Source of the DNA: an uncultured Clostridia bacterium
GTDB lineage: Bacteria; Bacillota; Clostridia; TANB77; CAG-508
DNA length: 38,119 nucleotides
Reading direction: 5' to 3'
Assembly: GCA_944391825.1 (NCBI GenBank)
Contig: CALXUZ010000006.1
Location: 1 to 38,119, forward strand
Of the stretch, positions 23,192 to 25,783 are shown in pieces. Positions within the stretch are counted from its first letter, which is position 1. Every line of letters starts with the position of its first letter. The translations under genes and the position numbers were made by a program. Under the pieces are notes generated by a model. The model ran no database searches. It was not told the origin of the DNA and was given only the letters and a program-made list of their open reading frames with translations.

Positions 23192-23488
23192 TTATTTTTT
23201 ATTTCTAACTTGTTCTAGTGGTACAATTCTTATAGTATAGCCCATAGGATATAATAATTTAAATAATGTATCTATCCTTGGAGAATTAGTATGCTTTTCT
23301 ATTCTAGCTATTACTGGTTGCTTAATTCCAGTTAGTTTGCTTAATTGTTGTTGGGTAAGATTATTCTTCTTTCTTGCCTCTATAGTTGCCTTTATTATAT
23401 CTTCTTCCATCTTAATTTCTTCTTCTTCTTCTGGAGTAAATTTCAAACTTGCTTTTACTTCTTTCCAAGTCAATTCCTTCTCACTCAT
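23192..23488 (-). CDS. higA: HTH antitoxin, HigA-like
   Basis: 98-aa protein with an acidic N-terminal helix (TPEEEEEIKMEEDIIKATIE) and an XRE-type HTH at about 42-78 (LTQQQLSKLTGIKQPVIARI). HigA antitoxins neutralise HigB mRNA-cutting toxins and repress their own promoter. ATG at 23488 has AGGAGG 10 bases before it. It is the third gene of a locus whose toxin has lost its N-terminal half. Still intact, it may act only as a repressor of the operator at 23844-23865. Confidence 0.85.
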   Translation of the reverse strand: MSEKELTWKEVKASLKFTPEEEEEIKMEEDIIKATIEARKKNNLTQQQLSKLTGIKQPVIARIEKHTNSPRIDTLFKLLYPMGYTIRIVPLEQVRNKK

Positions 23489-23515
23489 TGTCTATTTGCC
23501 TCCTTTTATAATCTT

Positions 23516-23665
23516 TTAATAATTTCTTTGAATAATATTATTACTTTCCTTTAATCCAATCATAGCATTGATAATATCCATCTCCAATTTTATAAGTTCT
23601 TCCTCTTCTGAAGTAATATTTAATTCCTTTTCAAATTCATTCCATTCTGTAAATTTATTAGCCAT
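23516..23665 (-). CDS. Truncated HTH-less antitoxin-like peptide
   Basis: A 49-aa reading frame. Its EEEELIKLEMDIINAMIG stretch matches the EEEEEIKMEEDIIKATIE stretch of the intact HigA-like protein, and both begin with a ...W-x-E... segment. It ends where the HTH would begin (SNNIIQRNY-stop against KNNLTQQQL). So it looks like a duplicated antitoxin cut off before its DNA-binding domain. AAAGGAGAT lies before its ATG, and the start is 4 bases from the toxin-remnant stop, as in an operon. Whether it is translated or functional is not known. Confidence 0.65.
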   Translation of the reverse strand: MANKFTEWNEFEKELNITSEEEELIKLEMDIINAMIGLKESNNIIQRNY

Positions 23666-23669
23666 TTTT

Positions 23670-23810
23670 CTATCTCCTTTTCATATAATCTTCTAAACAT
23701 TTCTTTGCTTTTATGATTTCATATTTAGGTGTCTTTTGAGTTTTCTTAATAAAACATGTTAATAATACAAATTTATTATTATCTAGACAAGCAAAAAGTA
23801 TTTTATACAT
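23670..23810 (-). pseudogene. higB: HigB (phage Gp49-like) toxin, C-terminal remnant
   Basis: A 46-aa frame holding the hallmark C-terminus of Gp49/HigB toxins: an ILFACLDNNKFVLLTCF strand pair, then KKTQKTPKYEIIKAKK and LEDYMKRR. Full-length relatives are about 100-120 aa; the N-terminal half is missing although the promoter just upstream is intact. GAGGTG stands before the ATG at 23810, so a short peptide could still be made. An RNase activity is unlikely without the missing half. It lies first in the operon. Confidence 0.75.
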
Positions 23811-23843
23811 TAAATTGTTGCACCTCTTTCATGGCACATATTT

Positions 23844-23873
23844 ATTATAACATATTTGTTATAATCGTGTCAA
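23844..23873 (-). promoter_or_regulatory. Promoter with operator palindrome of the higBA-like locus
   Basis: Minus strand: TTGACA (23868-23873), an 18-base spacer, TATAAT (23844-23849). A perfect inverted repeat ATTATAACA-AATA-TGTTATAAT (23844-23865) covers the -10 box and most of the spacer, the normal place for an antitoxin operator. Confidence 0.8.
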
Positions 23874-24093
23874 TTAATTTTATTTTCTTTTCTGGGAAAT
23901 TTTTGAGAAAAAATTTCTTGTAGAATTTTAAAAATACTTAGATTTTAAATATAAACTTATAATACCCTTGTATTACCATATTGTCAACAAAAATCGTTCG
24001 ACAAATTATTACAAAATATGACACATTGCATTTACTTTACAAAATTACTTGTTAACTTTTCATTGCACATCTTAATGAAACCTAACCATAAAT
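23874..24093. other. AT-rich gap without recognised genes
   Basis: No convincing frame with a ribosome binding site on either strand, and no tRNA or palindrome beyond the neighbouring sites. It separates the toxin-antitoxin remnant from the polysaccharide locus and may hold decayed sequence. Confidence 0.5.
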
Positions 24094-24166: not shown

Positions 24167-25783
24167 CTAATGGTCAGATAATTTAACTACTAATACATCA
24201 TCTATTATTCTTATACTACTATCATCTGGATAAATTCTCATTTTTTTGAATTCTTGCGATTTTTTAATTAATTCTATTTCATCTGTTGTAGGAATCTGTA
24301 TAGTAATATTAAAATAATCTTTGAGAAAATTTTTCCAATGTCTTGGACTATTTAATATTGATTTATCAGCTATACCCGTAAAACCTTTTAATATTTCACT
24401 TGTATTATCTTTTGTTAAATATAATTTTGAATCTACACTAGTACCTATTATTGCAACAGGCATTTGCTGATTATAACCAGGAAAGTCTTCAATTTTTTGA
24501 CTTATCTTTGTTGCTAATGAATAGGATTTATCAAATCTATACTCTAATTTAAAATAAGCTATATTATTTAAAATTATAAAATTATAAATAATACATATTA
24601 ACGATATTATTTCCACCCATTGGAAAATTTTATTTATATTAATTGTTGTTTTTTCTAATAATATAATTGCCATTACATAAAATAGACACCAACTATACCT
24701 CATTATCAGATGATAATTTACTTCTGTACTTATAACATTTATAATATTAATTCCTATTGGAATACAAACAATTAATAAAATTAACAAAATATTATAAAAG
24801 CAATTTTTATAAAGTTTTTGTTTAATATATTCTTTTATATATAGTATAATTGAAATTAATATAACTGCTATATTAGCAAAAACAATCAAACTATTAGTTT
24901 TAAAAATCTGTGTTGCATTTGTTGGGAAATCAATAAAATCTTTAATACTAGTTTTTATTCCGATAATTATTGTTTGTAAATTTATGTTATTTAGACCATC
25001 AACCCCCTGATAGGAAGCTAATGTAATATTTTGTACATTTAACATAATTTTTAGTATTATATAATACAAAACAAATCCCAAAATCCCCATAGTAAGACTT
25101 TTAAAAAAGCAAATCATAATTGTTTTTATATTTTCTTTATGTAGTATTAAAAATATTAATTTAAAAATACATAGCATAATAGTTATCGTAATATATGACT
25201 GATATATTCCTAAACCCAAAGCTATTAGAATCGCACCTATTAAAAAACCATATTTGTATTTATACGCTAATAGTACGGCTAAGGTCATCAACAGTAAGCT
25301 CAGCATATATCCATCTGCCACATACATATATGAAAATGTAGATGCTATACTTGGAAATGTAACAAGTATTCCAGATATTAAGATAATATTTAACTTTTTC
25401 TTCACATTAAATAATTCTACTATTATCACTGATGTAATGGCTATAAATATAATTGCTAATATTCCAATAATCCATGGTAAAGTATAATATGAAGATATTC
25501 CGCATGCAATTTGTAAAAACCATCTTCCTAAATGTAATCCATTCTGATAACTAAAGGTATTATTAATCGCATCATGATTTGGATAATTATTAGTAATAAT
25601 ATATATATGTGTAATTAGACCTATGATAATAGCTGAAATAAATGCTACTTTCCATTCTGCTTTGATTTTATTATATAATTTATTTATTATCTCATAAGCA
25701 GATTGTATGTTAGGATTTTTCTTTTCACCAAAATCACCTTTTTTATTATCTGATAAAGCATTATCAACAACTTTTTTACTCAT
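24167..25783 (-). CDS. GtrII-like membrane glucosyltransferase
   Basis: 538-aa protein with a charged N-terminal tail, about eleven transmembrane helices (from residue ~48) and a short extracellular C-terminal part. Sequence landmarks fit the GtrII family of membrane glucosyltransferases: NNYPNHDAINNTFSYQNG, the LHLGRWFLQ segment, VADGYMLSLLLMTLAV and LGIYQSYITITI. Such enzymes decorate surface polysaccharides from a lipid-linked sugar on the outer face. GtrA/GtrB partners are not nearby. It is last in the locus, 49 bases after the LCP gene. Confidence 0.82.
   Translation of the reverse strand: MSKKVVDNALSDNKKGDFGEKKNPNIQSAYEIINKLYNKIKAEWKVAFISAIIIGLITHIYIITNNYPNHDAINNTFSYQNGLHLGRWFLQIACGISSYYTLPWIIGILAIIFIAITSVIIVELFNVKKKLNIILISGILVTFPSIASTFSYMYVADGYMLSLLLMTLAVLLAYKYKYGFLIGAILIALGLGIYQSYITITIMLCIFKLIFLILHKENIKTIMICFFKSLTMGILGFVLYYIILKIMLNVQNITLASYQGVDGLNNINLQTIIIGIKTSIKDFIDFPTNATQIFKTNSLIVFANIAVILISIILYIKEYIKQKLYKNCFYNILLILLIVCIPIGINIINVISTEVNYHLIMRYSWCLFYVMAIILLEKTTININKIFQWVEIISLICIIYNFIILNNIAYFKLEYRFDKSYSLATKISQKIEDFPGYNQQMPVAIIGTSVDSKLYLTKDNTSEILKGFTGIADKSILNSPRHWKNFLKDYFNITIQIPTTDEIELIKKSQEFKKMRIYPDDSSIRIIDDVLVVKLSDH

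Follow-up and report, generated by a model that had tools for sequence, protein, structure and literature searches.

The locus at positions 23,192 to 23,873 (minus strand) of the studied sequence, a stretch of 38,119 nucleotides from contig C6 of genome G000 that we refer to as the window, is best read as a disarmed HigBA toxin-antitoxin module kept as a self-regulated orphan antitoxin, a reading to which we assign a probability of roughly 0.65. As it stands, the locus fails as a working HigBA system and is functionally an orphan antitoxin operon, of a kind already described (PMC7354431; PMC7167474; PMC2654758). Less ordinary is its toxin stub, which is in frame, common to two species and apparently under selection. 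The genome is a draft assembly of 1.05 Mb in 53 contigs, 88% complete, and its nearest relative, the sister species G010, is an uncultured Clostridia MAG that was assembled independently (CALXVE010000003.1).

On the minus strand, a promoter with its operator is followed by open reading frames (ORFs) of 46, 49 and 98 amino acids (aa). Further upstream, a GtrII-type glucosyltransferase gene (24,167-25,783, minus strand) separates the LCP gene from higBA, and is missing from this place in G010; the sole Rfam match within the window is a tRNA. Neither of the two short ORFs was matched by NCBIfam. The first of them (HigB1 stub, 23,670-23,810, minus strand) had been assigned to the Gp49/HigB toxins in a sequence-only reading, and the profile comparison then proposed yielded significant similarity, with a match to Pfam Gp49 (PF05973) at 33.6 bits against a cut-off of 23.9 (E = 4e-8, profile positions 52-88 of 90). 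The same reading held that only the C-terminal 46 aa of the toxin are left; the C-terminal half is indeed present, but the start codon and the first 3-4 residues have also been kept, the deletion being internal and in frame. According to the alignment, both species retain ATG TAT AAA ATA and then rejoin the full-length toxin at residue 75-76, which amounts to a loss of about 71 codons (about 213 nt) that joins residue 3 or 4 to approximately residue 75, and leaves a stub corresponding to residues 1 to 3-4 fused to about 75-116 (b4-b5-a3). Its ribosome binding site, AGAGGTG (23,821-23,827, minus strand), is located 10 nt before the ATG and is unchanged in G010. Slippage may have produced the deletion, given that the junction sits within short direct repeats (ATAAAAT type).

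In G010, the stub displays a junction identical to that of the window and 93% aa identity, and HigA follows directly, the 49-aa piece being absent. The search for a full toxin in close relatives, also proposed earlier, revealed full-length toxins of 116-121 aa in the other members of the genus (G006, G015, G018, G019 and G024), with intact loci at the shared chromosomal site between the LCP-type gene and the acyltransferase plsC-typA region in G006 (C77), G015 (C7), G018 and G024. At the same LCP-plsC site, the toxin of G014 was broken independently (ATG TAA plus a frameshift), with HigA intact. An assembly or sequencing artefact that conceals a real locus with a full toxin could be envisaged in a draft of 53 contigs, but the same in-frame deletion of about 213 nt occurs in an independently assembled species differing by about 5% in protein; we regard such an error as extremely improbable, and this explanation was dropped. 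The description of the locus as eroded is thus inaccurate for the stub, which results from one clean in-frame deletion and has been conserved since, while the 49-aa antitoxin remnant has, however, degraded.

The functional consequences of the deletion were mapped by alignment to the Streptococcus pneumoniae HigB structure (6AF3/6AF4), which the full-length toxins of the genus match along their entire length (E = 6.3e-43); likewise, the HigA of the window matches S. pneumoniae HigA (6af3_B) with E = 5.9e-17. In the S. pneumoniae system, HigA mainly contacts HigB helices a1 (residues 15-25) and a2 (residues 29-48), with additional b1-b1 pairing, and the RNase activity of HigB depends on R68, R73 and F90, with a minor contribution of K92 (PMC7984235). 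The deletion removed a1, a2, b2, b3, R68 and R73, and left b4-b5-a3 with F90 and K92. Since a1, a2 and both arginines are gone, the stub is expected to have lost both RNA cleavage and HigA binding through the known interface, and a role as HigA co-repressor through that interface was dropped as a main idea on account of the loss of a1 and a2. A functional type II HigBA system requires an entire Gp49/HigB toxin that has its HigA-binding helices and its catalytic arginines; this locus lacks one, while the HTH antitoxin expected downstream of the toxin is in place: the 98-aa ORF (HigA2, 23,192-23,488, minus strand) encodes an intact antitoxin/repressor, as first described, with matches to HTH_3 (E = 2.5e-11) and to 6af3_B.

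Between the stub and HigA2 lie further remains of what was probably a tandem toxin-antitoxin array. The 49-aa ORF (HigA1 remnant, 23,516-23,665, minus strand) matches no Pfam family, and its earlier characterization as an antitoxin-like peptide devoid of HTH agrees with its match to the N-terminal half of HigA2 (41%, E = 9.6e-7). Mirroring the stub, it keeps the toxin-binding half and has lost the HTH, and its end is degraded, the otherwise constant ATIEARKK having become AMIGLKES in the window. In a comparison with relatives, this remnant resembles the syntenic type-b HigAs (63%) more than it does HigA2 (46%), and the nearest matches of HigA2 belong to the other HigA type (72%). A third frame, missed in the first reading, was identified between the 49-aa ORF and HigA2 (HigB2 tail, 23,481-23,528, minus strand), corresponding to the final 15 codons of a second toxin; it reads KKLLKDYKRRQIDNE followed by TGA and overlaps the start of HigA2 in ATGAGTGA, an overlap (NE*-ATGAGTGA) that is the same in the intact locus of G015 (C7). 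Compared with the toxin C-termini of relatives, the tail obtained a score of 40, a value reached by 1 of 2000 shuffles. These features are consistent with an ancestor carrying a tandem HigB1-HigA1-HigB2-HigA2 array at the conserved LCP gene/plsC-typA site, which probably collapsed through short-repeat deletions; one deletion, common to the window and G010, would have taken about 71 codons out of HigB1 in frame, with loss of the HigA-binding helices and catalytic arginines, and another would have fused the N-terminal half of HigA1 to the HigB2 tail, CAAAGA at 23,525-23,530 being a likely microhomology. No tandem HigBA array was seen in any living relative examined.

The promoter and operator had been described as intact, and this holds: the proximal promoter P2 (23,844-23,873, minus strand), TTGACA-18-TATAAT with a TG before the -10, is sigma-70-like with 12/12 consensus positions and overlaps the palindrome ATAACAAATATGTTAT (23,847-23,862), the presumed HigA operator. 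A distal promoter P1, TTGACA-17-TATTAT (23,959-23,987, minus strand), shows 11/12 consensus positions, with similar hexamers in the same place in intact relatives. As the promoter scan overall produced 10 sites versus 8.1 in shuffled sequences, with no excess, the case for P1 and P2 rests on their two top scores and on conservation. The same type of palindrome is found at most intact loci of the family, about 24-54 bp upstream of higB. In the genome of the window, the exact palindrome has one further copy, located inside a coding sequence (CDS); control of other genes by HigA through this operator was rejected on these grounds, and HigA probably regulates its own operon only. In the 200 bp that precede the stub, the window and G010 show about 5-9 differences, and both the 50 bp adjoining the start codon and the 50-bp segment around P1 are free of them.

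Just upstream of P1 lies a further conserved element (23,994-24,025, minus strand) of the type TTTGTC-A-TTTT-TGTAGAA-TTTGTC-ATCGA; a 50-bp stretch that takes in its 3' half and P1 is identical in the window and G010. The element, of about 32 bp, contains TTTGT repeats phased at about 11 bp and ends at a TTGACA promoter (23,959-24,025 for both, minus strand), 170-200 bp upstream of the toxin. Syntenic as well as non-syntenic higBA loci carry it (G006 C117 and C77, G015 C1 and C7, G010, G014, G018 and G024), and it was found nowhere else in these genomes; the pattern occurs once in the genome of the window, and each of its 8 occurrences in the genus precedes a higBA locus. A genome-wide regulatory motif was accordingly rejected, the element being confined to higBA. 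A separate arrangement was observed in G024 C32 and G018 C12 (L031 and L032), where 113-170 bp containing a further promoter-like and operator-like sequence separate the intact toxin from HigA; in these two genomes, expression of HigA may therefore not depend on that of the toxin.

The locus displays the traits expected of an orphan antitoxin, namely intact relatives at the same site, an intact antitoxin under constraint, and the lack of a functional partner toxin, whether in cis or elsewhere in the genome. By profile search, the stub was the only HigB in G000 and G010, although the G000 assembly, at 88% completeness, might not include a toxin encoded in trans; a split toxin with its other half elsewhere in the genome was also considered, and none was found by profile. 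Full HigBs do occur in relatives, some of them away from the LCP-plsC site. Between the window and G010, HigA is 95-96% identical, without any amino-acid change in the HTH, and its dN/dS is 0.106 over 98 codons. A disarmed module kept as a repressor, which had been offered as one possible outcome, fits these results best, given a toxin without its HigA-binding and catalytic parts and the conservation of HigA, promoter and operator. The remaining operon would then consist of a promoter with a HigA operator, a short toxin-frame leader and one complete HigA, and would be autoregulated, HigA binding and repressing its own promoter. The leader should still be translated; within its last codons it carries AGGAG (23,674-23,678, minus strand), the ribosome site of the antitoxin ORF that follows, which in G010 directly serves HigA, and the two genes may thereby be coupled. 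HigA would at most neutralize HigB toxins arriving from outside, as an anti-addiction function.

One observation counts against this disarmed-module reading, since amino-acid changes ought to be tolerated in a peptide that is nothing more than a leader. Assuming a single deletion event, every difference between the stubs of the window and G010 arose after it; these comprise 6 synonymous and 3 non-synonymous changes, with a dS of 0.228, a dN of 0.0285 and a dN/dS of 0.125, estimates drawn from nine substitutions in a single pair of species. When neutral evolution was simulated under the mutation spectrum of fourfold sites, 7.3 of 9 changes were expected to be non-synonymous, and three or fewer were obtained in 0.15% of the runs (P = 0.0015). 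Furthermore, the stub of the window keeps 21 of the 22 C-terminal-half positions that are conserved at 85% or more in 34 full toxins, the exception being R74K at the junction; the full toxins themselves deviate at 0-3 of these positions. The stub could hence be, as the first reading also considered, a functional mini-HigB peptide (b4-b5-a3 with F90 and K92) with a new, selected role independent of HigA and expressed from the old toxin-antitoxin promoter, for instance binding RNA or the ribosome without cutting, or stabilizing mRNA or HigA. Its dN/dS is similar to that of working neighbors (0.10-0.18 for most; HigA as above, acyltransferase 0.147, LCP 0.175, with typA at 0.035), and the adjoining HigA1 remnant did degrade, so the conservation is not merely a matter of low divergence; moreover, an independent 63-aa C-terminal half with its own ribosome binding site and ATG exists in G125. 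Nevertheless, the signal comes from nine substitutions in a single pair, the stub has neither the HigA interface nor R68/R73, the C-terminal halves of G066 and G108 have no good start signal and look dead, and some stem changes affect commonly conserved positions (E104I; R101Y). We consider such a peptide unlikely on balance.

The low dN/dS could also reflect the earlier full toxin, if the ATAAAAT-type repeats were a slippage hotspot at which the toxin body was deleted in each species separately and not long ago, the stub now decaying. The position of the junction within a short direct repeat and the resemblance of the C-terminal conservation to that of intact toxins would agree with parallel loss; the junction is, however, identical in both species, neither lineage shows an intact allele, the dS of the stub equals that of HigA (0.213) and LCP (0.224), and a single shared event is simpler, which makes two recent deletions quite improbable. 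With a datable in-frame toxin deletion in two species, selection on the leftovers of toxin-antitoxin systems becomes directly measurable, and if the stub is truly maintained, a toxin gene has outlived its toxicity.

Comparable remnants recur in the family. Among 390 family genomes searched by profile, 64 had a HigB match, and C-terminal toxin pieces were identified, besides the window and G010, in G066, G125, G108, G058, G193 and G281, with HigA intact beside them in all except G281. The C-terminal half of G125 lies behind a promoter and operator; comparison of G066 with G199 shows a deletion that begins immediately after the operator, extends into the C-terminal half of the toxin and took the ribosome binding site; the C-terminal half of G108 has no ordinary start codon. 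There is one clear case of an N-terminal half only, G282 C7, near a contig end. A bias towards N-terminal loss is to be expected if HigA must remain transcribed and translated, its ribosome site lying in the 3' end of the toxin gene, and the repeated pattern of promoter, toxin C-terminal half and HigA suggests a rule by which disarming deletions spare the promoter and the antitoxin ribosome site. The LCP-plsC site itself looks like a variable islet; in G014 C9 (L030, 4137-6075), a gene for an AAA_21 (AbiEii-like) ATPase and a partner without Pfam match lie between HigA and the acyltransferase, a pair resembling a two-gene defence cassette.

With the S. pneumoniae HigBA system (6AF3/6AF4; PMC7984235), the locus shares the toxin-first gene order, an HTH repressor and a palindromic operator, and differs from it in a toxin without a1, a2, R68 and R73, and in an extra partial HigA and second toxin tail. 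Orphan antitoxins are reported to be common remnants of degraded systems, as exemplified by a parE pseudogene and a truncated YacB (PMC7354431); as in these orphan antitoxins or anti-addiction modules, the antitoxin is intact and the partner toxin a remnant, but here the remnant is in frame, behind an intact promoter and conserved across two species. Decaying chromosomal systems such as ccdO157, in which decay reportedly proceeds via deletion or nonsense mutation with drift (PMC2654758; PMC7167474), likewise lost toxin function at a conserved chromosomal site, whereas the stub of the window, unlike them, displays little drift.
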